Assembly: GCA_943735955.1 (NCBI GenBank) | Contig: OX030955.1 | Span: forward strand, 13,419,383-13,483,382 | Source of the DNA: Piscicola geometra | Taxonomy: Eukaryota > Annelida > Clitellata > Hirudinida > Piscicolidae | Direction of reading: 5' to 3' | DNA: 64,000 nt | Part shown: positions 1 through 64,000 of the stretch, in pieces | How positions within the stretch are numbered: the first letter of the stretch is position 1 | How the letters are laid out: the number at the start of each line of letters is the position of its first letter | Made by a program: the position numbers and the translations under genes | Notes under the pieces: model-generated | Databases searched by the model: none | Told to the model about the DNA's origin: nothing | Seen by the model: the letters and a program-made list of their open reading frames with translations, nothing else

Positions 1-76
1 GACAACAGAATCAACAAGTGTGCCAACTGCTGTATCGACAACAGTGCCGACTACTGTATCAATGATGACAACAGAA
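1..76 (+). repeat. Representative unit, built from two related 24-bp blocks plus an 18-bp block
   Basis: Within the 66-bp unit, offsets 11-34 and 35-58 are diverged copies of one 24-bp block. In frame +2 they encode STSVPTAV and STTVPTTV, sharing S-T-x-V-P-T-x-V. The remaining 18 bp (offset 59 to offset 10 of the next unit) encodes SMMTTE, which begins like the octets (TCA Ser) and keeps the Thr-Thr pair. The natural reading is that an older 24-bp minisatellite was fixed as a compound of 24+24+18 bp, and this compound was then amplified. The 24-bp duplication at 48.8 kb shows the octet can still act as an exchange unit. Confidence 0.85.
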
Positions 77-3000
77 TCAACAAGTGTCCCAACTGCTGTA
101 TCGACAACAGTGCCGACTACTGTATCAATGATGACAACAGAATCAACAAGTGTCCCAACTGCTGTATCGACAACAGTGCCGACTACTGTATCAATGATGT
201 CAACAGAATCAACAAGTGTGCCAACTGCTGTATCGACAACAGTGCCGACTACTGTATCAATGATGACAACAGAATCAACAAGTGTGCCAACTGCTGTATC
301 GACAACAGTGCCGACTACTGTATCAATGATGACAACAGAATCAACAAGTGTGCCAACTGCTGTATCGACAACAGTGCCGACTACCTTATCAATGATGACA
401 ACAGAATCAACAAGTGTGCCAACTGCTGTATCGACAACAGTGCCGACTACTGTATCAATGATGACAACAGAATCAACAAGTGTCCCAACTGCTGTATCGA
501 CAACAGTGCCGACTACTGTATCAATGATGACAACAGAATCAACAAGTGTGCCAACTGCTGTATCGACAACAGTGCCGACTACTGTATCAATGATGACAAC
601 AGAATCAACAAGTGTGCCAACTGCTGTATCGACAACAGTGCCGACTACTGTATCAATGATGACAACAGAATCAACAAGTGTGCCAACTGCTGTATCGACA
701 ACAGTTCCGACTACTGTATCAATGATGACAACAGAATCAACAAGTGTGCCAACTGCTGTATCGACAACAGTGCCGACTACTGTATCAATGATGACAACAG
801 AATCAACAAGTGTGCCAACTGCTGTATCGACAACAGTGCCGACTACTGTATTAATGATGACAACAGAATCAACAAGTGTGCCAACTGCTGTATCGACAAC
901 AGTGCCGACTACCTTATCAATGATGACAACAGAATCAACAAGTGTGCCAACTGCTGTATCGACAACAGTGCCGACTACTGTATCAATGATGACAACAGAA
1001 TCAACAAGTGTCCCAACTGCTGTATCGACAACAGTGCCGACTTCTGTATCAATGATGACAACAGAATCAACAAGTGTACCAACTGCTGTATCGACAACAG
1101 TGCCGACTATTGTATCAATGATGACAACAGAATCAACAAGTGTGCCAACTGCTGTATCGACAACAGCGCCGACTACTGTATCAATGATGACAACAGAATC
1201 AACAAGTGTGCCAACTGCTGTATCGACAACAGCGCCGACTACTGTATCAATGATGACAACAGAATCAACAAGTGTGCCAACTGCTGTATCGACAACAGTG
1301 CCGACTACTGTATCAATGATGACAACAGAATCAACAAGTGTGCCAACTGCTGTATCGACAACAGTGCCGACTATTGTATCAATGATGACAACAGAATCAA
1401 CAAGTGTGCCAACTGCTGTATCGACAAAAGTGCCGACTACTGTATCAATGATGACAACAGAATCAACAAGTGTGCCAACTGCTGTATCGACAACAGTGCC
1501 GACTACTGTATCAATGATGACAACAGAATCAACAAGTGTGCCAACTGCTGTATCGACAACAGCGCCGACTACTGTATCAATGATGACAACAGAATCAACA
1601 AAGGTGCCAACTGCTGTATCGACAACAGTGCCGACTACTGTATCAATGATGACAACAGAATCAACAAGTGTGCCAACTGCTGTATCGACAACAGTGCCGA
1701 CTACTGTATCAATGATGACAACAGAATCAACAAGTGTCCCAACTGCTGTATCGACAACAGTGCCGACTACCTTATCAATGATGACAACAGAATCAACAAG
1801 TGTGCCAACTGCTGTATCGACAACAGTGCCGACTACTGTATCAATGATGACAACAGAATCAACAAGTGTCCCAACTGCTGTATCGACAACAGTGCCGACT
1901 ACTGTATCAATGATGACAACAGAATCAACAAGTGTGCCAACTGCTGTATCGACAACAGTGCCGACTACTGTATCAATGATGACAACAGAATCAACAAGTG
2001 TGCCAACTGCTGTATCGACAACAGTGCCGACTACTGTATCAATGATGACAACAAAATCAACAAGTGTGCCAACTGCTGTATCGACAACAGTGCCGACTAC
2101 TGTATCAATGATGACAACAGAATCAACAAGTGTGCCAACTGCTGTATCGAAAACAACGCCGACTACTGTATCAATGATGACAACAGAATCAACAAAGGTG
2201 CCAACTGCTGTATCGACAACAGTGCCGACTACTGTATCAATGATGACAACAGAATCAACAAGTGTGCCAACTGCTGTATCGACAACAGTGCCGACTACTG
2301 TATCAATGATGACAACAGAATCAACAAGTGTCCCAACTGCTGTATCGACAACAGTGCCGACTACTGCATCAATGATGACAACAGAATCAACAAGTGTGCC
2401 AACTGCTGTATCGACAACAGTGCCGACTACTGTATCAATGATGTCAATAGAATCAACAAGTGTGCTAACTGCTGTATCGACAACAGTGCCGACTACTGTA
2501 TCAATGATGACAACAGAATCAACAAGTGTGCCAACTGCTGTATCGACAACAGTGCCGACTACTGTATCAATGATGACAACAGAATCAACAAGTGTGCCAA
2601 CTGCTGTATCGACAACAGTGCCGACTACTGTATCAATGATGACAACAGAATCAACAAGTGTGCCAACTGCTGTATCGACAACAGTGCCGACTACTGTATC
2701 AATGATGACAACAGAATCAACAAGTGTGCCAACTGCTGTATCGACAACAGTGCCGACTACTGTATCAATGATGACAACAGAATCAACAAGTGTGCCAACT
2801 GCTGTATCGACAACAGTGCCGACTACTGTATCAATGATGACAACAGAATCAACAAGTGTGCCAACTGCTGTATCGACAACAGTGCCGACTACTGTATCAA
2901 TGATGACAACAGAATCAACAAGTGTGCCAACTGCTGTATCGACAACAGCGCCGACTACTGTTTCAATGATGACAACAGAATCAACAAGTGTGCCAACTGC

Positions 3001-6000
3001 TGTATCGACAACAGCGCCGACTACTGTATCAATGATGACAACAGAATCAACAAGTGTGCCAACTGCTGTATCGACAACAGTGCCGACTACTGTATCAATG
3101 ATGACAACAGAATCAACAAGTGTGCCAACTGCTGTATCGACAACAGTGCCGACTATTGTATCAATGATGACAACAGAATCAACAAGTGTGCCAACTGCTG
3201 TATCGACAACAGTGCCGACTACTGTATCAATGATGACAACAGAATCAACAAGTGTGCCAACTGCTGTATCGACAACAGTGCCGACTACTGTGTCAATGAT
3301 GACAACAGAATCAACAAGTGTGCCAACTGCTGTATCGACAACAGCGCCGACTACTGTATCAATGATGACAACAGAATCAACAAAGGTGCCAACTGCTGTA
3401 TCGACAACAGTGCCGACTACTGTATCAATGATGACAACAGAATCAACAAGTGTGCCAACTGCTGTATCGACAACAGTGCCGACTACTGTATCAATGATGA
3501 CAACAGAATCAACAAGTGTCCCAACTGCTGTATCGACAACAGTGCCGACTACTGTATCAATGATGACAACAGAATCAACAAGTGTGCCAACTGCTGTATC
3601 GACAACAGTGCCGACTACTGTATCAATGATGTCAACAGAATCAACAAGTGTGCCAACTGCTGTATCGACAACAGTGCCGACTACTGTATCAATGATGACA
3701 ACAGAATCAACAAGTGTGCCAACTGCTGTATCGACAACAGTGCCGACTACTGTATCAATGATGACAACAGAATCAACAAGTGTGCCAACTGCTGTATCGA
3801 CAACAGTGCCGACTACTGTATCAATGATGACAACAGAATCAACAAGTGTGCCAACTGCTGTATCGACAACAGTGCCGACTACTGTATCAATGATGACAAC
3901 AGAATCAACAAGTGTGCCAACTGCTGTATCGACAACAGCGCCGACTACTGTATCAATGATGACAACAGAATCAACAAAGGTGCCAACTGCTGTATCGACA
4001 ACAGTGCCGACTACTGTATCAATGATGACAACAGAATCAACAAGTGTGCCAACTGCTGTATCGACAACAGTGCCGACTACTGTATCAATGATGACAACAG
4101 AATCAACAAGTGTGCCAACTGCTGTATCGACAACAGTGCCGACTACTGTATCAATGATGACAACAGAATCAACAAGTGTGCCAACTGCTGTATCGACAAC
4201 AGTGCCGACTACTGTATCAATGATGACAACAGAATCAACAAGTGTGCCAACTGCTGTATCGACAACAGTGCCGACTACTGTATCAATGATGACAACAGAA
4301 TCAACAAGTGTGCCAACTGCTGTATCGACAACAGTGCCGACTACTGTATCAATGATGACAACAGAATCAACAAGTGTGCCAACTGCTGTATCGACAACAG
4401 TGCCGACTATTGTATCAATGATGACAACAGAATCAACAAGTGTGCCAACTGCTGTATCGACAACAGTGCCGACTACTGTATCAATGATGACAACAGAATC
4501 AACAAGTGTGCCAACTGCTGTATCGACAACAGTGCCGACTACTGTATCAATGATGACAACAGAATCAACAAGTGTGCCAACTGCTGTATCGACAACAGTG
4601 CCGACTACTGTATCAATGATGACAACAGAATCAACAAGTGTGCCAACTGCTGTATCGACAACAGCGCCGACTACTGTATCAATGATGACAACAGAATCAA
4701 CAAGTGTGCCAACTGCTGTATCGACAACAGCGCCGACTACTGTATCAATGATGACAACAGAATCAACAAGTGTGCCAACTGCTGTATCGACAACAGTGCC
4801 GTCTACTGTATCAATGATGACAACAGAATCAACAAGTGTGCCAACTGCTGTATCGACAACAGTGCCGACTATTGTATCAATGATGACAACAGAATCAACA
4901 AGTGTGCCAACTGCTGTATCGACAACAGTGCCGACTACTGTATCAATGATGACAACAGAATCAACAAGTGTGCCAACTGCTGTATCGACAACAGTGCCGA
5001 CTACTGTATCAATGATGACAACAGAATCAACAAGTGTGCCAACTGCTGTATCGACAACAGCACCGACTACTGTATCAATGATGACAACAGAATCAACAAG
5101 TGTGCCAACTGCTGTATCGACAACAGTGCCGACTACTGTATCAATGATGACAACAGAATCAACAAGTGTCCCAACTGCTGTATCGACAACAGTGCCGACT
5201 ACTGTATCAATGATGACAACAGAATCAACAAGTGTGCCAACTGCTGTATCGACAACAGTGCCGACTACTGTATCAATGATGTCAACAGAATCAACAAGTG
5301 TGCCAACTGCTGTATCGACAACAGTGCCGACTACTGTATCAATGATGACAACAGAATCAACAAGTGTGCCAACTGCTGTATCGACAACAGTGCCGACTAC
5401 TGTATCAATGATGACAACAGAATCAACAAGTGTGCCAACTGCTGTATCGACAACAGTGCCGACTACTGTATTAATGATGACAACAGAATCAACAAGTGTG
5501 CCAACTGCTGTATCGACAACAGTGCCGACTACTGTATCAATGATGACAACAGAATCAACAAGTGTGCCAACTGCTGTATCGACAACAGTGCCGACTACTG
5601 TATCAATGATGACAACAGAATCAACAAGTGTGCCAACTGCTGTATCGACAACAGTGCCGACTACTGTATCAATGATGACAACAGAATCAACAAGTGTGCC
5701 AACTGCTGTATCGACAACAGTGCCGACTACTGTATCAATGATGACAACAGAATCAACAAGTGTGCCAACTGCTGTATCGACAACAGTGCCGACTACTGTA
5801 TCAATGATGACAACAGAATCAACAAGTGTGCCAACTGCTGTATCGACAACAGTGCCGACTACTGTATCAATGATGACAACAGAATCAACAAGTGTGCCAA
5901 CTGCTGTATCGACAACAGCGCCGACTACTGTATCAATGATGACAACAGAATCAACAAGTGTGCCAACTGCTGTATCGACAACAGCGCCGACTACTGTATC

Positions 6001-9000
6001 AATGATGACAACAGAATCAACAAGTGTGCCAACTGCTGTATCGACAACAGTGCCGACTACTGTATCAATGATGACAACAGAATCAACAAGTGTGCCAACT
6101 GCTGTATCGACAACAGTGCCGACTATTGTATCAATGATGACAACAGAATCAACAAGTGTGCCAACTGCTGTATCGACAACAGTGCCGACTACTGTATCAA
6201 TGATGACAACAGAATCAACAAGTGTGCCAACTGCTGTATCGACAACAGTGCCGACTACTGTATCAATGATGACAACAAAATCAACAAGTGTGCCAACTGC
6301 TGTATCGACAACAGCGCCGACTACTGTATCAATGATGACAACAGAATCAACAAAGGTGCCAACTGCTGTATCGACAACAGTGCCGACTACTGTATCAATG
6401 ATGACAACAGAATCAACAAGTGTGCCAACTGCTGTATCGACAACAGTGCCGACTACTGTATCAATGATGACAACAGAATCAACAAGTGTGCCAACTGCTG
6501 TATCGACAACAGCGCCGACTACTGTATCAATGATGACAACAGAATCAACAAGTGTGCCAACTGCTGTATCGACAACAGTGCCGACTACTGTATCAATGAT
6601 GACAACAGAATCAACAAGTGTGCCAACTGCTGTATCGACAACAGTGCCGACTACTGTATTAATGATGACAACAGAATCAACAAGTGTGCCAACTGCTGTA
6701 TCGACAACAGTGCCGACTACTGTATCAATGATGACAACAGAATCAACAAGTGTGCCAACTGCTGTATCGACAACAGTGCCGACTACTGTATCAATGATGA
6801 CAACAGAATCAACAAGTGTGCCAACTGCTGTATCGACAACAGTGCCGACTACTGTATCAATGATGACAACAGAATCAACAAGTGTGCCAACTGCTGTATC
6901 GACAACAGTGCCGACTACTGTATCAATGATGACAACAGAATCAACAAGTGTGCCAACTGCTGTATCGACAACAGTGCCGACTACTGTATCAATGATGACA
7001 ACAGAATCAACAAGTGTGCCAACTGCTGTATCGACAACAGCGCCGACTACTGTATCAATGATGACAACAGAATCAACAAGTGTGCCAACTGCTGTATCGA
7101 CAACAGCGCCGACTACTGTATCAATGATGACAACAGAATCAACAAGTGTGCCAACTGCTGTATCGACAACAGTGCCGACTACTGTATCAATGATGACAAC
7201 AGAATCAACAAGTGTGCCAACTGCTGTATCGACAACAGTGCCGACTATTGTATCAATGATGACAACAGAATCAACAAGTGTGCCAACTGCTGTATCGACA
7301 ACAGTGCCGACTACTGTATCAATGATGACAACAGAATCAACAAGTGTGCCAACTGCTGTATCGACAACAGTGCCGACTACTGTATCAATGATGACAACAA
7401 AATCAACAAGTGTGCCAACTGCTGTATCGACAACAGCGCCGACTACTGTATCAATGATGACAACAGAATCAACAAAGGTGCCAACTGCTGTATCGACAAC
7501 AGTGCCGACTACTGTATCAATGATGACAACAGACTCAACAAGTGTGCCAACTGCTGTATCGACAACAGTGCCGACTACTGTATCAATGATGACAACAGAA
7601 TCAACAAGTGTGCCAACTGCTGTATCGACAACAGCGCCGACTACTGTATCAATGATGACAACAGAATCAACAAGTGTGCCAACTGCTGTATCGACAACAG
7701 CGCCGACTACTGTATCAATGATGACAACAGAATCAACAAGTGTGCCAACTGCTGTATCGACAACAGTGCCGACTATTGTATCAATGATGACAACAGAATC
7801 AACAAGTGTGCCAACTGCTGTATCGACAACAGTGCCGACTATTGTATCAATGATGACAACAGAATCAACAAGTGTGCCAACTGCTGTATCGACAACAGTG
7901 CCGACTACTGTATCAATGATGACAACAGAATCAACAAGTGTGCCAACTGCTGTATCGACAACAGTGCCGACTACTGTATCAATGATGACAACAGAATCAA
8001 CAAGTGTGCCAACTGCTGTATCGACAACAGCGCCGACTACTGTATCAATGATGACAACAGAATCAACAAAGGTGCCAACTGCTGTATCGACAACAGTGCC
8101 GACTACTGTATCAATGATGACAACAGAATCAACAAGTGTGCCAACTGCTGTATCGACAACAGTGCCGACTACTGTATCAATGATGACAACAGAATCAACA
8201 AGTGTCCCAACTGCTGTATCGACAACAGTGCCGACTACTGTATCAATGATGACAACAGAATCAACAAGTGTGCCAACTGCTGTATCGACAACAGTGCCGA
8301 CTACTGTATCAATGATGACAACAGAATCAACAAGTGTGCCAACTGCTGTATCGACAACAGCGCCGACTACTGTATCAATGATGACAACAGAATCAACAAG
8401 TGTGCCAACTGCTGTATCGACAACAGTGCCGACTACTGTATTAATGATGACAACAGAATCAACAAGTGTGCCAACTGCTGTATCGACAACAGTGCCGACT
8501 ACCTTATCAATGATGACAACAGAATTAACAAGTGTGCCAACTGCTGTATCGACAACAGTGCCGACTACTGTATCAATGATGACAACAGAATCAACAAGTG
8601 TCCCAACTGCTGTATCGACAACAGTGCCGACTACTGTATCAATGATGACAACAGAATCAACAAGTGTGCCAACTGCTGTATCGACAACAGTGCCGACTAT
8701 TGTATCAATGATGACAACAGAATCAACAAGTGTGCCAACTGCTGTATCGACAACAGTGCCGACTACTGTATCAATGATGACAACAGAATCAACAAGTGTG
8801 CCAACTGCTGTATCGACAACAGTGCCGACTACTGTATCAATGATGACAACAGAATCAACAAGTGTCCCAACTGCTGTATCGACAACAGTGCCGACTACTG
8901 TATCAATGATGACAACAGAATCAACAAGTGTGCCAACTGCTGTATCGACAACAGTGCCGACTATTGTATCAATGATGACAACAGAATCAACAAGTGTGCC

Positions 9001-12000
9001 AACTGCTGTATCGACAACAGTGCCGACTACTGTATCAATGATGACAACAGAATCAACAAGTGTGCCAACTGCTGTATCGACAACAGTGCCGACTACTGTA
9101 TCAATGATGACAACAGAATCAACAAGTGTGCCAACTGCTGTATCGACAACAGTGCCGACTACTGTATCAATGATGACAACAGAATCAACAAGTGTGCCAA
9201 CTGCTGTATCAACAACAGTGCCGACTACTGTATCAATGATGACAACAGAATCAACAAGTGTGCCAACTGCTGTATCGACAACAGCGCCGACTACTGTATC
9301 AATGATGACAACAGAATCAACAAAGGTGCCAACTGCTGTATCGACAACAGTGCCGACTACTGTATCAATGATGACAACAGAATCAACAAGTGTGCCAACT
9401 GCTGTATCGACAACAGTGCCGACTACTGTATCAATGATGACAACAGAATCAACAAGTGTGCCAACTGCTGTATCGACAACAGTGCCGACTACTGTATCAA
9501 TGATGACAACAGAATCAACAAGTGTGCCAACTGCTGTATCGACAACAGTGCCGACTACTGTATCAATGATGTCAACAGATTCAACAAGTGTGCCAACTGC
9601 TGTATCGACAACAGTGCCGACTACTGTATCAATGATGACAACAGAATCAACAAGTGTGCCAACTGCTGTATCGACAACAGTGCCGACTACTGTATCAATG
9701 ATGACAACAGAATCAATAAGTGTGCCAACTGCTGTATCGACAACAGTGCCGACTACTGTATCAATGATGACAACAGAATCAACAAGTGTGCCAACTGCTG
9801 TATCGACAACAGTGCCGACTACTGTATCAATGATGACAACAGAATCAACAAGTGTGCCTACTGCTGTATCGACAACAGTGCCGACTATTGTATCAATGAT
9901 GACAACAGAATCAACAAGTGTGCCAACTGCTGTATCGACAACAGTGCCGACTACTGTATCAATGATGACAACAGAATCAACAAGTGTGCCAACTGCTGTA
10001 TCGACAACAGTGCCGACTACTGTATCAATAATGACAACAGAATCAACAAGTGTGCCAACTGCTGTATCGACAACAGTGCCGACTACTGTATCAATGATGA
10101 CAACAGAATCAACAAGTGTGCCAACTGCTGTATCGACAACAGTGCCGACTACTGTATCAATGATGACAACAGAATCAACAAGTGTGCCAACTGCTGTATC
10201 GACAACAGCGCCGACTACTGTATCAATGATGACAACAGAATCAACAAAGGTGCCAACTGCTGTATCGACAACAGTGCCGACTACTGTATCAATGATGACA
10301 ACAGAATCAACAAGTGTGCCAACTGCTGTATCGACAACAGTGCCGACTACTGTATCAATGATGACAACAGAATCAACAAGTGTCCCAACTGCTGTATCGA
10401 CAACAGTGCCGACTACTGTATCAATGATGACAACAGAATCAACAAGTGTGCCAACTGCTGTATCGACAACAGTGCCGACTACTGTATCAATGATGTCAAC
10501 AGAATCAACAAGTGTGCCAACTGCTGTATCAACAACAGTGCCGACTACTGTATCAATGATGACAACAGAATCAACAAGTGTGCCAACTGCTGTATCGACA
10601 ACAGTGCCGACTACTGTATCAATGATGACAACAGAATCAACAAGTTTGCCAACTGCTGTATCGACAACAGTGCCGACTACTGTATCAATGATGACAACAG
10701 AATCAACAAGTGTGCCAACTGCTATATCGACAACAGTGCCGACTACTATATCAATGATGACAACAGAATCAACAAGTGTGCCAACTGCTGTATCGACAAC
10801 AGTGCCGACTACTGTATCAATGATGACAACAGAATCAACAAGTGTGCCAACTGCTGTATCGACAACAGTGCCGACTACTGTATCAATGATGACAACAGAA
10901 TCAACAAGTGTGCCAACTGCTGTATCGACAACAGTGCCGACTATTGTATCAATGATGACAACAGAATCAACAAGTGTGCCAACTGCTGTATCGACAACAG
11001 TGCCGACTACTGTATCAATGATGACAACAGAATCAACAAGTGTGCCAACTGCTGTATCGACAACAGTGCCGACTACTGTATCAATGATGACAACAGAATC
11101 AACAAGTGTGCCAACTGCTGTATCGACAACAGCGCCGACTACTGTATCAATGATGACAACAGAATCAACAAAGGTGCCAACTGCTGTATCGACAACAGTG
11201 CCGACTACTGTATCAATGATGACAACAGAATCAACAAGTGTGCCAACTGCTGTATCGACAACAGTGCCGACTACTGTATCAATGATGACAACAGAATCAA
11301 CAAGTGTCCCAACTGCTGTATCGACAACAGTGCCGACTACTGTATCAATGATGACAACAGAATCAACAAGTGTGCCAACTGCTGTATCGACAACAGTGCC
11401 GACTACTGTATCAATGATGACAAAAGAATCAACAAGTGTGCCAACTGCTGTATCGACAACAGCGCCGACTACTGTATCAATGATGACAACAGAATCAACA
11501 AAGGTGCCAACTGCTGTATCGACAACAGTGCCGACTACTGTATCAATGATGACAACAGAATCAACAAGTGTGCCAACTGCTGTATCGACAACAGTGCCGA
11601 CTACTGTATCAATGATGACAACAGAATCAACAAGTGTCCCAACTGCTGTATCGACAACAGTGCCGACTACTGTATCAATGATGACAACAGAATCAACAAG
11701 TGTGCCAACTGCTGTATCGACAACAGTGCCGACTACTGTATCAATGATGTCAACAGAATCAACAAGTGTGCCAACTGCTGTATCGACAACAGTGCCGACT
11801 ACTGTATCAATGATGACAACAGAATCAACAAGTGTGCCAACTGCTGTATCGACAACAGTGCCGACTACTGTATCAATGATGACAACAGAATCAACAAGTG
11901 TGCCAACTGCTGTATCGACAACAGTGCCGACTACTGTATTAATGATGACAACAGAATCAACAAGTGTGCCAACTGCTGTATCGACAACAGTGCCGACTAC

Positions 12001-48000: not shown

Positions 48001-51000
48001 TGTGCCAACTGCTGTATCGACAACAGTGCCGACTACTGTATTAATGATGACAACAGAATCAACAAGTGTGCCAACTGCTGTATCGACAACAGTGCCGACT
48101 ACCTTATCAATGATGACAACAGATTCAACAAGTGTGCCAACTGCTGTATTGACAAGAGTGCCGACTACTGTATCAATGATGACAACAGAATCAACAAGTG
48201 TGCCAACTGCTGTATCGACAACAGTGCCGACTACTGTATCAATGATGACAACAGAATCAACAAGTGTGTTAACTGCTGTATCGACAACAGTGCCGACTAC
48301 TGTATTAATGATGACAACAGAATCAACAAGTGTGCCAACTGCTGTATCGACAACAGTGCCGACTACTGTATCAATGATGACAACAGAATCAACAAGTGTC
48401 CCAACTGCTTTATCGACAACAGTGCCGACTACTGTATCAATGATGACAACAGAATCAACAAGTGTGCCAACTGCTGTATCGACAACAGTGCCGACTACTG
48501 TATTAATGATGACAACAGAATCAACAAGTGTGCCAACTGCTGTATCGACAACAGTGCCGACTACCTTATCAATGATGACAACAGAATCAACAAGTGTGCC
48601 AACTGCTGTATCGACAACAGTGCCGACTACTGTATCAATGATGACAACAGAATCAACAAGTGTGCCAACTGCTGTATCGACAACAGTGCCGACTACTGTA
48701 TTAATGATGACAACAGAATCAACAAGTGTGCCAACTGCTGTATCGACAACAGTGCCGACTACCTTATCAATGATGACAACAGATTCAACAAGTGTGCCAA
48801 CTGCTGTATTGACAACAGTGCCGACTGCTGTATTGACAACAGTGCCGACTACTGTATCAATGATGACAACAGAATCAACAAGTGTGCCAACTGCTGTATC
48901 GACAACAGTGCCGACTACTGTATCAATGATGACAACAGAATCAACAAGTGTCCCAACTGCTGTATCGACAACAGTGCCGACTACTGTATCAATGATGACA
49001 ACAGAATCAACAAGTGTGCCAACTGCTGTATCGACAACAGTGCCGACTACTGTATCAATGATGACAACAGAATCAACAAGTGTGCCAACTGCTGTATCGA
49101 CAACAGTGCCGACTACTGTATCAATGATGACAACAGAATCAACAAGTGTGCCAACTGCTGTATCGACAACAGTGCCGACTACTGTATCAATGATGACAAC
49201 AGAATCAACAAGTGTGCCAACTGCTGTATCGACAACAGTGCCGACTACTGTATCAATGATGACAACAGAATCAAGAAGTGTGCCAACTGCTGTATCGACA
49301 ACAGTTCCGACTACTGTATCAATGATGACAACAGAATCAACAAGTGTGCCAACTGCTGTATCGACAAAAGTGCCGACTACTGTATCAATGATGACAACAG
49401 AATCAACAAGTGTGTTAACTGCTGTATCGACAACAGTGCCGACTACTGTATTAATGATGACAACAGAATCAACAAGTGTGCCAACTGCTGTATCGACAAC
49501 AGTGCGGACTACTGTATCAATGATGACAACAGAATCAACAAGTGTCCCAACTGCTTTATCGACAACAGTGCCGACTACTGTATCAATGATGACAACAGAA
49601 TCAACAAGTGTGCCAACTGCTGTATCGACAACAGTGCCGACTACTGTATTAATGATGACAACAGAATCAACAAGTGTGCCAACTGCTGTATCGACAACAG
49701 TGCCGACTACCTTATCAATGATGACAACAGAATCAACAAGTGTGCCAACTGCTGTATCGACAACAGTGCCGACTACTGTATCAATGATGACAACAGAATC
49801 AACAAGTGTGCCAACTGCTGTATCGACAACAGTTCCGACTACTGTATCAATGATGACAACAGAATCAACAAGTGTGCCAACTGCTGTATCGATAAAAGTG
49901 CCGACTACTGTATCAATGATGACAACAGAATCAACAAGTGTGTTAACTGCTGTATCGACAACAGTGCCGACTACTGTATTAATGATGACAACAGAATCAA
50001 CAAGTGTGCCAACTGCTGTATCGACAACAGTGCCGACTACTGTATCAATGATGACAACAGAATCAACAAGTGTGCCAACTGCTGTATCGACAACAGTGCC
50101 GACTACTGTATCAATGATGACAACAGAATCAACAAGTGTGCCAACTGCTGTATCGACAACAGTGCCGACTACTGTATCAATGATGACAACAGAATCAACA
50201 AGTGTGCCAACTGCTGTATCGACAACAGTGCCGACTACTGTATCAATGATGACAACAGAATCAACAAGTGTGCCAACTGCTGTATCGACAACAGTTCCGA
50301 CTACTGTATCAATGATGACAACAGAATCAACAAGTGTGCCAACTGCTGTATCGACAAAAGTGCCGACTACTGTATCAATGATGACAACAGAATCAACAAG
50401 TGTGTTAACTGCTGTATCGACAACAGTGCCGACTACTGTATTAATGATGACAACAGAATCAACAAGTGTGCTAACTGCTGTATCGACAACAGTGCCGACT
50501 ACTGTATCAATGATGACAACAGAATCAACAAGTGTCCCAACTGCTTTATCGACAACAGTGCCGACTACTGTATCAATGATGACAACAGAATCAACAAGTG
50601 TGCCAACTGCTGTATCGACAACAGTGCCGACTACTGTATTAATGATGACAACAGAATCAACAAGTGTGCCAACTGCTGTATCGACAACAGTGCCGACTAC
50701 CTTATCAATGATGACAACAGAATCAACAAGTGTGCCAACTGCTGTATCGACAACAGTGCCGACTACTGTATCAATGATGACAACAGAATCAACAAGTGTG
50801 CCAACTGCTGTATCGACAACAGTTCCGACTACTGTATCAATGATGACAACAGAATCAACAAGTGTGCCAACTGCTGTATCGACAAAAGTGCCGACTACTG
50901 TATCAATGATGACAACAGAATCAACAAGTGTGTTAACTGCTGTATCGACAACAGTGCCGACTACTGTATTAATGATGACAACAGAATCAACAAGTGTGCC

Positions 51001-54000: not shown

Positions 54001-57000
54001 CTTATCAATGATGACAACAGAATCAACAAGTGTGCCAACTGCTGTATCGACAACAGTGCCGACTACTGTATCAATGATGACAACAGAATCAACAAGTGTG
54101 CCAACTGCTGTATCGACAACAGTGCCGACTACTGTATCAATGATGACAACAGAATCAACAAGTGTGCCAACTGCTGTATCGACAACAGTGCCGACTACTG
54201 TATCAATGAAGACAACAGAATCAACAAGTGTTCCAACTGCTGTATCGACAACAGTGCCGACTACCTTATCAATGATGACAACAGATTCAACAAGTGTGCC
54301 AACTGCTGTATTGACAACAGTGCCGACTACTGTATCAATGATGACAACAGAATCAACAAGTGTCCCAACTGCTGTATCGACAACAGTGCCGACTACTGTA
54401 TCAATGATGACAACAGAATCAACAAGTGTGCTAACTGCTGTATCGACAACAGTGCCGACAACTGTATCAATGATGACAACAGAATCAACAAGTGTGTCAA
54501 CTGCTGTATCGACAACAGTTCCGACTACTGTATCAATGATGACAACAGAATCAACAAGTGTCCCAACTGCTGTATCGACAACAGTGCCGACTACTGTATC
54601 AATGATGACAACAGAATCAACAAGTGTGCCAACTGCTGTATCGACAACAGTGCCGACTACTGTATCAATGAAGACAACAGAATCAACAAGTGTGCCAACT
54701 GCTGTATCGACAACAGTTCCGACTACTGTATCAATGATGACAACAGAATCAACAAGTGTGCCAACTGCTGTATCGACAACAGTGCCGACTACTGTATCAA
54801 TGATGACAACAGAATCAACAAGTGTGCCAACTGCTGTATCGACAACAGTGCCGACTACTGTATCAATGATGACAACAGAATCAACAAGTGTGCCAACTGC
54901 TGTATCGACAACAGTGCCGACTACTGTATTAATGATGACAACAGAATCAACAAGTGTGCCAACTGCTGTATCGACAACAGTGCCGACTACCTTATCAATG
55001 ATGACAACAGAATCAACAAGTGTGCCAACTGCTGTATCGACAACAGTGCCGACTACTGTATCAATGATGACAACAGAATCAACAAGTGTGCCAACTGCTG
55101 TATCGACAACAGTGCCGACTACTGTATCAATGATGACAACAGAATCAACAAGTGTGCCAACTGTTGTATCGACAACAGTGCCGACTACTGTATTAATGAT
55201 GACAACAGAATCAACAAGTGTGCCAACTGCTGTATCGACAACAGTGCCGACTACCTTATCAATGATGACAACAGATTCAACAAGTGTGCCAACTGCTGTA
55301 TTGACAACAGTGCCGACTACTGTATCAATGATGACAACAGAATCAACAAGTGTGCCAACTGCTGTATCGACAACAGTGCCGACTACTGTATCAATGATGA
55401 CAACAGAATCAACAAGTGTCCCAACTGCTGTATCGACAACAGTGCCGACTACTGTATCAATGATGACAACAGAATCAACAAGTGTGCTAACTGCTGTATC
55501 GACAACAGTGCCGACTACTGTATCAATGATGACAACAGAATCAACAAGTGTCCCAACTGCTGTATCGACAACAGTGCCGACTACTGTATCAATGATGACA
55601 ACAGAATCAACAAGTGTGCTAACTGCTGTATCGACAACAGTGCCGACAACTGTATCAATGATGACAACAGAATCAACAAGTGTGCCAACTGCTGTATCGA
55701 CAACAGTTCCGACTACTGTATCAATGATGACAATAGAATCAACAAGTGTGCCAACTGTTGTATCGACAACAGTGCCGACTACTGTATTAATGATGACAAC
55801 AGAATCAACAAGTGTGCCAACTGCTGTATCGACAACAGTGCCGACTACCTTATCAATGATGACAACAGATTCAACAAGTGTGCCAACTGCTGTATTGACA
55901 ACAGTGCCGACTACTGTATCAATGATGACAACAGAATCAACAAGTGTGCCAACTGCTGTATCGACAACAGTGCCGACTACTGTATCAATGATGACAACAG
56001 AATCAACAAGTGTCCCAACTGCTGTATCGACAACAGTGCCGACTACTGTATCAATGATGACAACAGAATCAACAAGTGTGCTAACTGCTGTATCGACAAC
56101 AGTGCCGACAACTGTATCAATGATGACAACAGAATCAACAAGTGTGCCAACTGCTGTATCGACAACAGTTCCGACTACTGTATCAATGATGACAACAGAA
56201 TCAACAAGTGTGCCAACTGCTGTATCGACAAAAGTGCCGACTACTGTATCAATGATGACAACAGAATCAACAAGTGTGCCAACTGCTGTATCGACAACAG
56301 TGCCGACTACTGTATCAATGATGACAACAGAATCAACAAGTGTGCCAACTGCTGTATCGACAACAGTGCCGACTACTGTATCAATGATGACAACAGAATC
56401 AACAAGTGTGCCAACTGCTGTATCGACAACAGTGCCGACTACTGTATCAATGATGACAACAGAATCAACAAGTGTGCCAACTGCTGTATCGACAACAGTG
56501 CCGACTACTGTATTAATGATGACAACAGAATCAACAAGTGTGCCAACTGCTGTATCGACAACAGTGCCGACTACCTTATCAATGATGACAACAGAATCAA
56601 CAAGTGTGCCAACTGCTGTATCGACAACAGTGCCGACTACTGTATCAATGATGACAACAGAATCAACAAGTGTGCCAACTGCTGTATCGACAACAGTGCC
56701 GACTACTGTATCAATGATGACAACAGAATCAACAAGTGTGCCAACTGTTGTATCGACAACAGTGCCGACTACTGTATTAATGATGACAACAGAATCAACA
56801 AGTGTGCCAACTGCTGTATCGACAACAGTGCCGACTACCTTATCAATGATGACAACAGATTCAACAAGTGTGCCAACTGCTGTATTGACAACAGTGCCGA
56901 CTACTGTATCAATGATGACAACAGAATCAACAAGTGTGCCAACTGCTGTATCGACAACAGTGCCGACTACTGTATCAATGATGACAACAGAATCAACAAG

Positions 57001-60000
57001 TGTCCCAACTGCTGTATCGACAACAGTGCCGACTACTGTATCAATGATGACAACAGAATCAACAAGTGTGCTAACTGCTGTATCGACAACAGTGCCGACT
57101 ACTGTATCAATGATGACAACAGAATCAACAAGTGTCCCAACTGCTGTATCGACAACAGTGCCGACTACTGTATCAATGATGACAACAGAATCAACAAGTG
57201 TGCTAACTGCTGTATCGACAACAGTGCCGACAACTGTATCAATGATGACAACAGAATCAACAAGTGTGCCAACTGCTGTATCGACAACAGTTCCGACTAC
57301 TGTATCAATGATGACAACAGAATCAACAAGTGTGCCAACTTTTGTATCGACAACAGTGCCGACTACTGTATTAATGATGACAACAGAATCAACAAGTGTG
57401 CCAACTGCTGTATCGACAACAGTGCCGACTACCTTATCAATGATGACAACAGATTCAACAAGTGTGCCAACTGCTGTATTGACAACAGTGCCGACTACTG
57501 TATCAATGATGACAACAGAATCAACAAGTGTGCCAACTGCTGTATCGACAACAGTGCCGACTATTGTATCAATGATGACAACAGAATCAACAAGTGTCCC
57601 AACTGCTGTATCGACAACAGTGCCGACTACTGTATCAATGATGACAACAGAATCAACAAGTGTGCCAACTGCTGTATCGACAACAGTTCCGACTACTGTA
57701 TCAATGATGACAACAGAATCAACAAGTGTGCCAACTGCTGTATCGACAAAAGTGCCGACTACTGTATCAATGATGACAACAGAATCAACAAGTGTGTTAA
57801 CTGCTGTATCGACAACAGTGCCGACTACTGTATTAATGATGACAACAGAATCAACAAGTGTGCCAACTGCTGTATCGACAACAGTGCCGACTACTGTATC
57901 AATGATGACAACAGAATCAACAAGTGTCCCAACTGCTTTATCGACAACATTGCCGACTACTGTATCAATGATGACAACAGAATCAACAAGTGTGCCAACT
58001 GCTGTATCGACAACAGTGCCGACTACTGTATTAATGATGACAACAGAATCAACAAGTGTGCCAACTGCTGTATCGACAACAGTGCCGACTACCTTATCAA
58101 TGATGACAACAGAATCAACAAGTGTGCCAACTGCTGTATCGACAACAGTGCCGACTACTGTATCAATGATGACAACAGAATCAACAAGTGTGCCAACTGC
58201 TGTATCGACAACAGTGCCGACTACTGTATTAATGATGACAACAGAATCAACAAGTGTGCCAACTGCTGTATCGACAACAGTGCCGACTACCTTATCAATG
58301 ATGACAACAGATTCAACAAGTGTGCCAACTGCTGTATCGACAACAGTGCCGACTACTGTATCAATGATGACAACAGAATCAACAAGTGTGCCAACTGCTG
58401 AATCGACAACAGTGTCGACTACTGTATCAATGATGACAACAGAATCAACAAGTGTGCCAACTGCTGTATCGACAACAGTGCCGACTACTGTATCAATGAT
58501 GACAACAGAATCAACAAGTGTGCCAACTGTTGTATCGACAACAGTGCCGACTACTGTATCAATGATGACAACAGAATCAACAAGTGTGCCAACTGCTGTA
58601 TCGACAACAGTGCCGACTACTGTATCAATGATGACAACAGAATCAACAAGTGTGCCAACTGCTGTATCGACAACAGTGCCGACTACTGTATCAATGAGGA
58701 CAACAGAATCAACAAGTGTGCCAACTGCTGTATCGACAACAGTGCCGACTACTGTATCAATGATGACAACAGAATCAACAAGTGTGCCAACTGCTGTATC
58801 GACAACAGTGCCGACTACTGTATTAATGATGACAACAGAATCAACAAGTGTGCCAACTGCTGTATCGACAACAGTGCCGACTACTGTATTAATGATGACA
58901 ACAGAATCAACAAGTGTGCCAACTGCTGTATCGACAACAGTGCCGACTACTGTATCAATGCTGACAACAGAATCAACAAGTGTGCCAACTGCTGTATCGA
59001 CAACAGTTCCGACTACTGTATCAATGATGACAACAGAATCAACAAGTGTGCCAACTGCTGTATCGACAAAAGTGCCGACTACTGTATCAATGATGACAAC
59101 AGAATCAACAAGTGTGTTAACTGCTGTATCGACAACAGTGCCGACTACTGTATTAATGATGACAACAGAATCAACAAGTGTGCCAACTGCTGTATCGACA
59201 ACAGTGCCGACTACTGTATCAATGATGACAACAGAATCAACAAGTGTCCCAACTGCTTTATCGACAACATTGCCGACTACTGTATCAATGATGACAACAG
59301 AATCAACAAGTGTGCCAACTGCTGTATCGACAACAGTGCCGACTACTGTATTAATGATGACAACAGAATCAACAAGTGTGCCAACTGCTGTATCGACAAC
59401 AGTGCCGACTACCTTATCAATGATGACAACAGAATCAACAAGTGTGCCAACTGCTGTATCGACAACAGTGCCGACTACTGTATCAATGATGACAACAGAA
59501 TCAACAAGTGTGCCAACTGCTGTATCGACAACAGTGCCGACTACTGTATTAATGATGACAACAGAATCAACAAGTGTGCCAACTGCTGTATCGACAACAG
59601 TGCCGACTACCTTATCAATGATGACAACAGATTCAACAAGTGTGCCAACTGCTGTATCGACAACAGTGCCGACTACTGTATCAATGATGACAACAGAATC
59701 AACAAGTGTGCCAACTGCTGAATCGACAACAGTGTCGACTACTGTATCAATGATGACAACAGAATCAACAAGTGTGCCAACTGCTGTATCGACAACAGTG
59801 CCGACTACTGTATCAATGATGACAACAGAATCAACAAGTGTGCCAACTGTTGTATCGACAACAGTGCCGACTACTGTATCAATGATGACAACAGAATCAA
59901 CAAGTGTGCCAACTGCTGTATCGACAACAGTGCCGACTACTGTATCAATGATGACAACAGAATCAACAAGTGTGCCAACTGCTGTATCGACAACAGTGCC

Positions 60001-63000
60001 GACTACTGTATCAATGAGGACAACAGAATCAACAAGTGTGCCAACTGCTGTATCGACAACAGTGCCGACTACTGTATCAATGATGACAACAGAATCAACA
60101 AGTGTGCCAACTGCTGTATCGACAACAGTGCCGACTACTGTATTAATGATGACAACAGAATCAACAAGTGTGCCAACTGCTGTATCGACAACAGTGCCGA
60201 CTACTGTATTAATGATGACAACAGAATCAACAAGTGTGCCAACTGCTGTATCGACAACAGTGCCGACTACTGTATCAATGCTGACAACAGAATCAACAAG
60301 TGTGCCAACTGCTGTATCGACAACAGTGCCGACTACTGTATCAATGATGACAACAGAATCAACAAGTTTGCCAACTGCTGTATCGACAACAGTGCCGACT
60401 ACTGTATTAATGATGACAACAGAATCAACAAGTGTGCCAACTGCTGTATCGACAACAGTGCCGACTACTGTATCAATGAGGACAACAGAATCAACAAGTG
60501 TGCCAACTGCTGTATCGACAACAGTGCCGACTACTGTATCAATGATGACAACAGAATCAACAAGTGTGCCAACTGCTGTATCGACAACAGTGCCGACTAC
60601 TGTATTAATGATGACAACAGAATCAACAAGTGTGCCAACTGCTGTATCGACAACAGTGCCGACTACTGTATTAATGATGACAACAGAATCAACAAGTGTG
60701 CCAACTGCTGTATCGACAACAGTGCCGACTACTGTATCAATGCTGACAACAGAATCAACAAGTGTGCCAACTGCTGTATCGACAACAGTTCCGACTACTG
60801 TATCAATGATGACAACAGAATCAACAAGTGTGCCAACTGCTGTATCGACAAAAGTGCCGACTACTGTATCAATGATGACAACAGAATCAACAAGTGTGTT
60901 AACTGCTGTATCGACAACAGTGCCGACTACTGTATTAATGATGACAACAGAATCAACAAGTGTGCCAACTGCTGTATCGACAACAGTGCCGACTACTGTA
61001 TCAATGATGACAACAGAATCAACAAGTGTCCCAACTGCTTTATCGACAACATTGCCGACTACTGTATCAATGATGACAACAGAATCAACAAGTGTGCCAA
61101 CTGCTGTATCGACAACAGTGCCGACTACTGTATTAATGATGACAACAGAATCAACAAGTGTGCCAACTGCTGTATCGACAACAGTGCCGACTACCTTATC
61201 AATGATGACAACAGAATCAACAAGTGTGCCAACTGCTGTATCGACAACAGTGCCGACTACTGTATCAATGATGACAACAGAATCAACAAGTGTGCCAACT
61301 GCTGTATCGACAACAGTGCCGACTACTGTATTAATGATGACAACAGAATCAACAAGTGTGCCAACTGCTGTATCGACAACAGTGCCGACTACCTTATCAA
61401 TGATGACAACAGATTCAACAAGTGTGCCAACTGCTGTATCGACAACAGTGCCGACTACTGTATCAATGATGACAACAGAATCAACAAGTGTGCCAACTGC
61501 TGAATCGACAACAGTGTCGACTACTGTATCAATGATGACAACAGAATCAACAAGTGTGCCAACTGCTGTATCGACAACAGTGCCGACTACTGTATCAATG
61601 ATGACAACAGAATCAACAAGTGTGCCAACTGTTGTATCGACAACAGTGCCGACTACTGTATCAATGATGACAACAGAATCAACAAGTGTGCCAACTGCTG
61701 TATCGACAACAGTGCCGACTACTGTATCAATGATGACAACAGAATCAACAAGTGTGCCAACTGCTGTATCGACAACAGTGCCGACTACTGTATCAATGAG
61801 GACAACAGAATCAACAAGTGTGCCAACTGCTGTATCGACAACAGTGCCGACTACTGTATCAATGATGACAACAGAATCAACAAGTGTGCCAACTGCTGTA
61901 TCGACAACAGTGCCGACTACTGTATTAATGATGACAACAGAATCAACAAGTGTGCCAACTGCTGTATCGACAACAGTGCCGACTACTGTATTAATGATGA
62001 CAACAGAATCAACAAGTGTGCCAACTGCTGTATCGACAACAGTGCCGACTACTGTATCAATGCTGACAACAGAATCAACAAGTGTGCCAACTGCTGTATC
62101 GACAACAGTGCCGACTACTGTATCAATGATGACAACAGAATCAACAAGTTTGCCAACTGCTGTATCGACAACAGTGCCGACTACTGTATTAATGATGACA
62201 ACAGAATCAACAAGTGTGCCAACTGCTGTATCGACAACAGTGCCGACTACCTTATCAATGATGACAACAGATTCAACAAGTGTGCCAACTGCTGTATCGA
62301 CAACAGTGCCGACTACTGTATCAATGATGACAACAGAATCAACAAGTGTGCCAACTGATGTATCGACAACAGTGCCGACTACTGTATCAATGATGACAAC
62401 AGAATCAACAAGTGTGCCAACTGCTGTATCGACAACAGTGCCGACTACTGTATCAATGATGACAACAGAATCAACAAGTGTGCCAACTGCTGTATCGACA
62501 ACAGTGCCGACTACTGTATCAATGATGACAACAGAATCAACAAGTGTGCCAACTGCTGTATCGACAACAGTGCCGACTACTGTATCAATGATGACAACAG
62601 AATCAACAAGTGTGCCAACTGCTGTATCGACAACAGTGCCGACTACTGTATCAATGATGACAACAGAATCAACAAGTGTGCCAACTGCTGTATCGACAAC
62701 AGTGCCGACTACTGTATCAATGATGACAACAGAATCAAAAAGTGTGCCAACTGCTGTATCGACAACAGTGCCGACTACTGTATCAATGATGACAACAGAA
62801 TCAACAAGTGTGCCAACTGCTGTAACGACAACAGTGCCGACTACTGTATCAATGATGACAACAAAATCAACAAGTGTGCCAACTGCTGTATCGACAACAG
62901 TGCCGACTACTGTATCAATGATGACAACAGAATCAACAAGTGTGCCAACTGCTGTATCGACAACAGTGCCGACTACTGTATCAATGATGACAACAGAATC

Positions 63001-64000
63001 AACAAGTGTCCCAACTGCTTTATCGACAACAGTGCCGACTACTGTATCAATGATGACAACAGAATCAACAAGTGTGCCAACTGCTGTATCGACAACAGTG
63101 CCGACTACTGTATCAATGATGACAACAGAATCAACAAGTGTGCCAACTGCTGTATCGACAACAGTGCCGACTACTGTATCAATGAGGACAACAGAATCAA
63201 CAAGTGTGCCAACTGCTGTATCGACAACAGTGCCGACTACTGTATCAATGATGACAACAGAATCAACAAGTGTGCCAACTGCTGTATCGACAACAGTGCC
63301 GACTACTGTATTAATGATGACAACAGAATCAACAAGTGTGCCAACTGCTGTATCGACAACAGTGCCGACTACTGTATTAATGATGACAACAGAATCAACA
63401 AGTGTGCCAACTGCTGTATCGACAACAGTGCCGACTACTGTATCAATGCTGACAACAGAATCAACAAGTGTGCCAACTGCTGTATCGACAACAGTGCCGA
63501 CTACTGTATCAATGATGACAACAGAATCAACAAGTTTGCCAACTGCTGTATCGACAACAGTGCCGACTACTGTATTAATGGTGACAACAGAATCAACAAG
63601 TGTGCCAACTGCTGTATCGACAACAGTGCCGACTACCTTATCAATGATGACAACAGATTCAACAAGTGTGCCAACTGCTGTATCGACAACAGTGCCGACT
63701 ACTGTATCAATGATGACAACAGAATCAACAAGTGTGCCAACTGATGTATCGACAACAGTGCCGACTACTGTATCAATGATGACAACAGAATCAACAAGTG
63801 TGCCAACTGCTGTATCGACAACAGTGCCGACTACTGTATCAATGATGACAACAGAATCAACAAGTGTGCCAACTGCTGTATCGACAACAGTGCCGACTAC
63901 TGTATCAATGATGACAACAGAATCAACAAGTGTGCCAACTGCTGTATCGACAACAGTGCCGACTACTGTATCAATGATGACAACAGAATCAACAAGTGTG
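2..64000 (+). CDS. Giant mucin-like Thr/Ser/Pro-rich repeat protein, internal fragment (open at both ends)
   Basis: Frame +2 reads through all 21,333 codons without a stop that I can find, so the gene's true start and end lie outside. Each 22-residue unit is octet STSVPTAV, octet STTVPTTV and hexamer SMMTTE: 12 of 22 residues are Ser/Thr and 14 of 22 are Ser/Thr/Pro, with one Glu, two Met and no Cys, Asn, Gly or aromatic residue in the consensus. That is the signature of PTS domains in mucins and similar O-glycosylated surface proteins; about 11,600 Ser/Thr are visible. Common variants are conservative or composition-preserving (Val GTG to GTC or GTT, Thr ACT to ACA, Thr to Ser, Val to Leu or Ala), with some Lys (Thr, Ser or Glu to Lys). 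The only length change adds 24 bp, one octet. No signal peptide, membrane segment, Cys knot or von Willebrand-type domain is visible; these would have to lie outside. ATG ATG occurs in nearly every unit, so no start can be chosen. Alternatives: yeast-flocculin-like or bacterial adhesin repeat, or a non-coding satellite that is open by chance. The product class is inferred from composition only. Confidence 0.6.
9205..10700. repeat. Segmental duplicate, left copy (paired with 13,825-15,320; offset 4,620 bp = 70 units)
   Basis: A series of uncommon variants recurs exactly 4,620 bp downstream: AAC for GAC at 9211/13831, GGT at 9325/13945, GTC with AGATTC at 9571/14191, GCCTAC near 9859/14479, AATAAT near 10030/14650, GGT at 10249/14869, GTC at 10495/15115, AAC at 10531/15151 and TTT at 10645/15265. 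The left copy then carries two private TGT to TAT changes at 10,732 and 10,747 that the right copy lacks. Edges are approximate because consensus units cannot be placed. Confidence 0.8.
13825..15320. repeat. Segmental duplicate, right copy (paired with 9,205-10,700)
   Basis: This carries the same ordered set of rare variants as 9,205-10,700, 70 units later. Its left end is preceded by a 9-unit (594-bp) partial repeat of the same haplotype: AAC at 13237/13831, GGT at 13351/13945 and GTC-AGATTC at 13597/14191. The left end has therefore been duplicated again locally after the larger event. Confidence 0.75.
14490..16610. repeat. 16-unit (1,056-bp) tandem duplication
   Basis: Variant pairs 1,056 bp apart define two adjacent copies, about 14,490-15,550 and 15,550-16,610: TAT 14506/15562 (and again 16618 at the next boundary), AATAAT 14650/15706, GGT 14869/15925, GTC 15115/16171, AAC 15151/16207, TTT 15265/16321 and AAT for AAC 15403/16459. 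The GCCTAC variant near 14,479 has no partner at 15,535 and the expected AATAAT near 16,762 is absent, which bounds the copies. Confidence 0.85.
18890..22717. repeat. 29-unit (1,914-bp) tandem duplication, two copies
   Basis: Copies lie at about 18,890-20,803 and 20,804-22,717. Matching rare variants 1,914 bp apart: AGCGCC 18985/20899, TTC for ATC 19042/20956, AGT for AGA 19477/21391, TGTAAC about 19,834/21,748, GAG for GAT about 19,864/21,778, ACT...GGC about 19,975-19,981/21,889-21,895, and GTCAAAAGA 20791/22705. Outside these limits the pairing fails (18,877 versus 20,791; 20,899 versus 22,813). I found no difference between copies at the markers checked, so the duplication looks recent. 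Confidence 0.9.
23970..28721. repeat. 36-unit (2,376-bp) tandem duplication with nested 27-unit repeats
   Basis: Copies lie at about 23,970-26,345 and 26,346-28,721. Pairs 2,376 bp apart: CTT 24013/26389, TGTAAC 24058/26434, TAA in frame +1 24076/26452, GCG 24268/26644 and 26050/28426, TTT...GGC about 25,375/27,751 and AAAATC 26341/28717. Nested within are 27-unit (1,782-bp) pairings, such as AAAATC 24559/26341 and 26935/28717 and GCG 24268/26050. The haplotype continues to about 30.3 kb with altered spacing (27,751 to 29,731 is 30 units). Confidence 0.88.
31375..34278. repeat. 22-unit (1,452-bp) tandem duplication
   Basis: Copies lie at about 31,375-32,826 and 32,827-34,278. Pairs 1,452 bp apart: AAAAAG 31825/33277, GTT for ATC 32002/33454, TTT for TGT 32263/33715 and AAAATC 32809/34261. 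A third, partial copy follows with one unit fewer (21 units): AAAAAG 33277/34663 and AGTTCC 33373/34759. Confidence 0.88.
34800..41850. repeat. Array segment with the linked TTCC, AAAAGT, GTT haplotype every 23-29 units
   Basis: Three successive units with AGTTCC, GACAAAAGT and TGTGTTAAC recur as a block. The GTT (CC to TT, Pro to Leu in frame +2) is seen at 34870, 36388, 38302, 40216 and 41800, at intervals of 23, 29, 29 and 24 units. A further block has GTATTAAT, TGTCCC with CTTTATC, then ATT and CTT units. ACTTCTGT variants (Ala to Ser) occur near 35,932, 37,912 and 39,760. These are successive diverging copies of an ancestral block of roughly 1.9 kb. Confidence 0.8.
41500..45600. repeat. 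Four-copy block family marked by TGG
   Basis: The rare T57G change (TGG in frame +1; Val GTA to Gly GGA in frame +2) occurs at 41701, 42427, 43681 and 45199 and nowhere else that I saw. Each is preceded by AAAATC (41521, 42247, 43501 and 45019) and a GACAACTGT unit, and followed by AAAAGT, GTTAAC, GTATTAAT/AGAATTAAC and TGTCCC/CTTCATC units. Spacings are 11, 19 and 23 units. The 11-unit copy is an internally deleted version of the longer block. Confidence 0.85.
48775..48864 (+). repeat. Length-variant unit of 90 bp: one extra octet from a 24-bp tandem duplication
   Basis: This unit has the 24-bp segment at 48,802-48,825 repeated exactly at 48,826-48,849. It is the only length-variant unit I found in the window. 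The duplicated segment starts at TGC TGT ATT GAC and ends at GCC GAC. Both copies carry ATT in place of the usual ATC, so the duplication came after that change, which is common in neighbouring units (for example near 48,150). In frame +2 the unit gains eight residues and reads as three successive octets before the hexamer: STSVPTAV, LTTVPTAV, LTTVPTTV. The reading frame is kept. The middle octet is a hybrid, with the start of octet B and the Thr-Ala-Val end of octet A, as expected from slippage or unequal exchange between the two octets. Confidence 0.95.
48865..57600. repeat. Array segment F1 after the octet insertion: GTTAAC blocks, then GATTC/ATTGAC blocks
   Basis: Phase is shifted by 24 relative to the left part, but frame +2 is unchanged. 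GTTAAC units occur near 49,414, 49,930, 50,404, 50,932, 51,856, 52,780 and 53,572. Between about 52.2 and 57.5 kb a recurring run has AACTGTTGT, ATTAAT, CTTATC with AGATTC, TGTATTGAC, TGTCCC, TGTGCTAAC and GACAACTGT units in that order. Frame +1 has a TGA at 53,383. No length variant is seen. Confidence 0.75.
57600..64000. repeat. Array segment F2: 20-, 27- and 21-unit block copies at the right edge
   Basis: The linked pair TGA (TGT to TGA in frame +1) with AGTGTCGAC occurs at 58399, 59719 and 61501, and once earlier at 53383. AATGCT units (Met ATG to Leu CTG in frame +2) are at 58960, 60280, 60742, 62062 and 63448, and appear only here. AAGTTT is at 60367, 62149 and 63535; TGATGT (Ala to Asp in frame +2) is at 62356 and 63742. 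Spacings of 1,320, 1,782 and 1,386 bp show three overlapping duplication events, the last running up to the window edge. Confidence 0.82.

Follow-up and report, generated by a model that had tools for sequence, protein, structure and literature searches.

Repeat arrays and the open frame

The window analysed here, 64,000 nucleotides of the leech Piscicola geometra at C1:13419383-13483382 (C1 being the contig OX030955.1), is occupied by a 66-bp (22-codon) repeat and is open in frame +2 of the plus strand from position 2 to position 64000. Translation of the whole window gave 0 stops in the 21,333 codons of this frame, in agreement with the earlier note on this DNA, and TRF reported a period of 66 bp with 97% matches and 0% indels. 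The consensus unit, TTESTSVPTAVSTTVPTTVSMM, has Thr, Ser or Pro at 14 of its 22 residues and lacks Cys, and these three amino acids account for 62.4% of frame +2 over the window. Unit parsing found a single unit-length change, an extra in-frame 24-bp (8-codon) piece encoding VPTTVSMM at positions 48842..48865 (event at C1:13468224), which matches a shift of the TRF register near 48818-48833. The earlier note has to be corrected on two points: minus-strand frame 2 is likewise free of stops for 21,333 codons, and frame +1, which had been described as a short decoy, contains 12 stops and a longest open run of 8,025 codons.

When the analysis was widened to 264 kb (the window and 100 kb on each side), the 66-bp array filled the sequence entirely, and the plus frame of the window continued with 0 stops in 87,999 codons. 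Only 6 Cys were present among these 87,999 residues, in keeping with the claim that the unit is 64% Thr/Ser/Pro without Cys, and Ser and Thr together made up 53.5% of the 66-bp zone. The splice-donor motifs GTAAGT and GTGAGT and the polyadenylation motif AATAAA occurred 0 times in the 264 kb, and were equally missing on the opposite strand.

Followed outwards, the frame extends 906 kb in the 5′ direction and 206 kb in the 3′ direction, which supports the earlier reading of the window as the inside of a giant exon or gene whose ends lie outside it. The complete plus-strand frame starts at C1:12513253, ends with a stop at C1:13689486 and comprises 392,011 codons with one assembly gap; cut at the gap, this is by arithmetic 223,710 codons, 200 N and 168,301 codons. 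Since probes of 300 bases only sample the arrays, openness over the whole length was assessed with protein searches that report the surrounding open frame, which returned 223,780 aa with the unique 5′ sequence as query and 173,346 aa with the unique 3′ sequence, both without internal stops and each reaching somewhat beyond the gap because N is read through. All 65 of the 300-base probes within both arrays (30 + 18 + 2 + 15) were open in the expected frame, and a further 10 + 18 + 5 landed outside the arrays, one of the 10 being withheld as N. The earlier note had ranked the visible part among the longest known polypeptide segments, which, with a frame of this extent, understated the case.

The frame is built from two Thr/Ser/Pro-rich arrays in series that share a common phase. 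The first, with an 8-residue unit STTVPTTA encoded by 24 bp, spans ~644 kb at about C1:12514600-13158195, and the second, the 66-bp array with its 22-residue unit, spans ~531 kb at about C1:13158195-13689197. Thr, Ser and Pro together make up 62.5% of one repeat zone and 67.9% of the other, and Cys is nearly absent. The phase of the frame shifts once along the arrays, within the 200-N run at C1:13184383-13184582 inside the 66-bp array; such a run usually marks a scaffold join whose size is unknown. Because C1:13184383 belongs to this run, a real frameshift or an intron at that position was considered and rejected. From the open frame we infer that the whole repeat domain is probably carried by one exon.

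Both units are confined to one orientation. In the genome of 171,024,195 bases on 66 contigs, the exact 66-bp unit has 3,292 forward and 0 reverse copies, and a 38-base sequence from the 24-bp array has 2,858 forward and 0 reverse copies; among the matches listed (the first 100 for each), all were on C1. Mitochondrial COX1, on contig C66 and translated with code 5, places the genome among piscicolid leeches, with 97% identity to Codonobdella sp. followed by 89% and 86% to others of the family.

Unique sequence at the two ends of the frame

Both flanks of the window keep frame +2 until it reaches unique sequence, Lys/Glu-rich at the start and membrane-spanning at the end, which is the continuation that the earlier note had proposed to look for. 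At the 5′ end, the frame opens past a TGA at C1:12513250 and passes through 449 Lys/Glu-rich unique codons (C1:12513253-12514600, plus strand) before the repeats begin near C1:12514600. This stretch contains 0 stops, while the two alternative frames have 40 and 48, and its 449 codons exceed the longest open run of 164 codons obtained in 2,000 Markov simulations. The Lys/Glu piece is found at a single place in the leech's own genome.

An exon scan upstream of this stretch gave a candidate signal-peptide exon, MTLTRGILLLAGLLSLLSA, at C1:12512291-12512348 on the plus strand, with a phase-1 donor at C1:12512349 and a GC content of 53% against 32% and 38% alongside. Two acceptor-like sites are present in C1:12513000-12514640, and the one at C1:12513830 matches the phase of the candidate exon. 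The exon is treated as a prediction only, because the same scan yields 2 signal-peptide-like exons per 42,784 bases of control DNA and because the 192 codons before the proposed acceptor (C1:12513253-12513829) are also open, with 0 stops where the other frames have 10 and 21, for which a plain intron gives no explanation. The Lys/Glu-rich frame offers a possible alternative start at its first ATG, C1:12513265, where no signal peptide is visible. The signal peptide that the earlier note had suggested seeking is thus represented by a candidate with an in-phase acceptor, although scanning control DNA produces such candidates as well.

At the 3′ end, the frame leaves the 66-bp array near C1:13689197 and enters a second unique sequence, beginning GSSTHMMTTAMTFVQSRSTKPVLKDLPTIVSQNVSTTSPKFLPTTESTTVLISEVKLTTPLLLWYVGFVFCLLLLLLLLFITRQYGES, which ends unspliced at the stop codon C1:13689486. 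Translation and hydropathy locate in this unique end, which extends from the end of the array to a donor at C1:13689439, a segment LLLWYVGFVFCLLLLLLLL whose mean hydropathy is 2.9 in a 19-residue window. It follows the array in frame and lies near the C-terminus, so that a transmembrane segment, one of the features that the earlier note had suggested seeking, is present. The donor has the consensus GTGAGT, and a CTCTAG acceptor precedes a candidate tail exon that starts at C1:13689566 on the plus strand. Joining the two is predicted to replace the unspliced stop with a cytoplasmic tail, RQYARETLEAEE. The C-terminal sequence occurs at a single place in the leech's own genome, and no relatives of it were found at an E value of 0.01 among 282 candidates. 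Downstream of the gene, at about C1:13690500-13691100, lies a sequence resembling a remnant of what we take, from its appearance, to be a hAT/ZMYM-type transposase.

Pfam searches at an E value of 0.1 recovered no family in the C-terminus, the predicted N-terminus or the repeat, and the von Willebrand D, SEA and Cys-rich domains that the earlier note had suggested looking for were likewise without a match in the unique ends at this threshold. A homology search with the repeat gave at least 6 weak matches at an E value of 0.001 among 7,991 candidates scored, the best of those listed being 39% identical across 49% of the query; these were judged to reflect composition.

Stop codons are purged from the repeat units

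Whether the open frame is maintained was examined through the substitutions among 4,226 sequenced 66-bp units (279 kb), which represent 431 distinct unit sequences and carry 3,648 substitutions, or 1.3% per site. None of the 6 kinds of substitution that would create a stop in the coding frame was seen, compared to 162 of the 192 other kinds (P = 2.5e-5 with kinds taken as independent, and 5.7e-5 with the comparison restricted to like types of mutation). About 106 stop-creating copies were expected and 0 observed, but since the unit copies are not independent (431 distinct in 4,226), we rely on the kinds and not on the expected copies. In the four other frames with reachable stops (+1, +2, −0 and −1 in this count), stop-creating kinds were seen in 13/16, 8/8, 11/12 and 13/15 cases, 45 of 51 in total.

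These counts bear directly on the possibility that the array is a non-coding satellite, open by chance or derived from a small coding repeat and untranslated. Such a satellite could well be very homogeneous and of megabase size, as the array is, and the 66-bp unit has no known homologue; silent and amino-acid changes are also about equally common in the 66-bp zone, with 19.6 copies per possible amino-acid change and 17.6 per possible silent change. An unselected satellite would leave the frame unconstrained, however, and the frame was found to be constrained, with 0 of 6 stop-creating kinds against 45 of 51 elsewhere. Two different repeats moreover keep one frame over 1.18 Mb, and this frame meets unique sequence at both ends, including a membrane-spanning segment. 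We therefore regard an untranslated satellite as improbable. In a coding array, free amino-acid change in the 66-bp zone is as expected for a mucin domain, in which composition and length outweigh order.

In the 24-bp zone, sampled over 22,563 nt and 893 units, silent changes numbered 33.3 copies per possible change and amino-acid changes 15.1, values that are uncorrected for mutation bias, and the stop test is uninformative there because only one stop kind is possible. The scarcity of small indels had been entertained as proof of coding and was dropped as independent evidence, because two control arrays on the same contig, at C1:13702383-13705382 (period 26, 37 copies) and C1:12347883-12350882 (period 13, 116 copies), also have 0% indels by TRF. 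That non-coding arrays of the same genome are indel-free in this way is a point in favour of a satellite; small indels seem to be rare in tandem arrays of this genome whether or not they code for protein.

The substitution data also clarify the antisense frame, whose repeat reads TLVDSVVIIDTVVGTVVDTAVG and which is stop-free in the window and has only 2 stops in the 264 kb. This openness is automatic and uninformative, because no single substitution of the consensus creates a stop on that strand. Over the 10 kb in which the 66-bp array begins, the antisense frame is interrupted, with longest runs of 1,047, 883 and 759 codons, and no unique sequence was seen to continue it. Antisense coding was rejected on these two grounds, automatic openness and breakage upstream, and we give it next to no credence.

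Array growth and the reliability of the assembled length

Changes in unit length within the 264 kb numbered 30, each a 24-bp change that keeps the frame. Twenty-seven of the 30 fall downstream of the window within C1:13500654-13525338, where the identity at a lag of 66 declines, a segment that we interpret as a local higher-order repeat. Exact repeats of at least 300 bp cover 88% of the 264 kb, the offsets between consecutive exact copies in the same region are all multiples of 3, and the longest exact repeat is ~2.8 kb. This pattern suggests that the array probably grew through local exchanges, each spanning a few kilobases at most.

The same features determine how far the assembled length can be trusted. 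The copy number comes from one assembly, and the gap within it makes the true number uncertain. A real mucin gene could thus encode a much shorter protein, if the assembly inflated the repeats (through haplotype copies or a false join across the gap) or if the array is removed in part by splicing, terminates prematurely or is seldom translated to completion. The position of the 200-N gap inside the array and the 88% coverage by exact repeats are consistent with this. Usual HiFi reads are longer than 2.8 kb, however, so that reads of this length could in principle place the array, and strong splice-donor motifs and AATAAA are absent from the 264 kb. Stops are also purged from units throughout 279 kb, which is what translation of the units would lead one to expect. 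The genome note for this species, on assembly wrPisGeom1.1, gives 76-fold HiFi coverage, assembly with hifiasm and YaHS and a QV of 51.3, which likewise weighs against inflation, and describes annotation as still to come (PMC11134150). On balance, a much shorter protein is a serious contender, though one we would bet against. It overlaps with the explanation we favour, which concerns what the frame encodes and not its exact length.

A candidate giant membrane-anchored mucin

Taken together, these observations suggest that the window is the middle of a 392,011-codon plus-strand frame that likely encodes a membrane-anchored leech mucin, a reading to which we assign a probability of roughly 0.85 from the sequence at hand. 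More tentatively, and at a little under even odds, the entire frame would be translated from one exon of ~1.18 Mb as one polypeptide of ~392,000 residues, with an extrapolated mass of ~38 MDa excluding glycans. Protein and exon would then each be the longest known, and the protein would be a glycoprotein filament anchored in the membrane and, at 0.25 nm per residue, close to 0.1 mm in contour length.

For such a membrane-anchored mucin, the signal-peptide exon at C1:12512291 would be spliced from its donor at C1:12512349 to the in-phase acceptor at C1:12513830, the chain would enter the secretory pathway, and the GTGAGT donor at C1:13689439, joined to the exon at C1:13689566, would supply the predicted cytoplasmic tail. 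Dense O-glycans on ~220,000 Ser/Thr residues (an extrapolated number) may stiffen the chain into a filament, which the C-terminal helix would tether in the cell membrane, and the mucin may form or feed the mucous coat, in skin or glands. Growth of the locus could have proceeded by unequal exchange between the 24- and 66-bp repeats; both lengths are multiples of three, so copy number can shift without breaking the frame. Selection would then purge stops and yet hardly limit amino-acid changes in the 66-bp zone.

The proposed architecture is most similar to that of transmembrane mucins of the vertebrate MUC12, MUC16, MUC4 and MUC1 type, which have a very large Thr/Ser/Pro repeat exon of variable repeat number, a single in-frame membrane-spanning segment and a short tail, the last of these a candidate here. 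A SEA or EGF domain is common, though not universal, in these proteins. The leech frame appears to share the repeat domain and the membrane-spanning segment and differs in having no SEA or EGF domain by Pfam, no sequence similarity that we could find, two unrelated-looking repeats in series and a Lys/Glu-rich N-terminal stretch. Gel-forming (polymeric) mucins also have Thr/Ser/Pro-rich repeats, whereas the leech frame has almost no Cys, no von Willebrand D, Cys-rich or cystine-knot match to Pfam in its unique ends, and a membrane-spanning end. Coding satellites and minisatellites (VNTR exons) resemble the locus in their homogeneous head-to-tail units, in-frame unit-length changes and numerous exact repeats between 0.3 and 2.8 kb long, but the leech arrays reach the megabase scale of non-coding satellites and are nevertheless purged of stops.

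Extreme length is a property that the frame has in common with titin, also of record size, with PKZILLA-1 at ~45,000 aa and with Omnitrophota proteins of up to ~85,000 aa. Those proteins are multi-domain, whereas the leech frame is nearly all low-complexity repeat and, by these sizes, 4 to 9 times longer. Omnitrophota are described as having some of the largest proteins ever reported (PMC11573180). For human MUC12, the longest haplotype is reported to encode 23,080 aa and to contain the largest human exon (PMC13345508); the leech frame is ~17 times longer than that protein. If made in full, the product would be several times longer than any known protein, judged from the sizes of PKZILLA-1 and the Omnitrophota proteins and from the MUC12 value (PMC13345508). 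Among the matches listed from the open-licence literature, none described a larger protein and none named this gene.

If the frame is translated, the upper limit of polypeptide length would move several-fold. At usual elongation rates, a ribosome would need the better part of a day to translate it once and transcription would last several hours, and a message of more than a megabase would have to be exported, so that the locus would test the processivity of ribosomes, mRNA quality control and secretion. The locus may also serve as a natural test of how a coding satellite, purged of stops though not of amino-acid changes, grows to megabase size with its frame kept. Domain libraries miss the locus, as the lack of a Pfam match indicates, and an annotation pipeline that masks repeats is expected to hide it.

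Two other loci on the contig were noted. The next gene upstream, at C1:12496153-12500628, has minus-strand open frames resembling what we presume from the translation to be an amine-type G-protein-coupled receptor. Further upstream, a 300-base probe at C1:11899383-11899682 covers the end of what is presumably a histone H2B, running straight into the end of a presumed H2A in one frame, perhaps a recombinant histone pseudogene.
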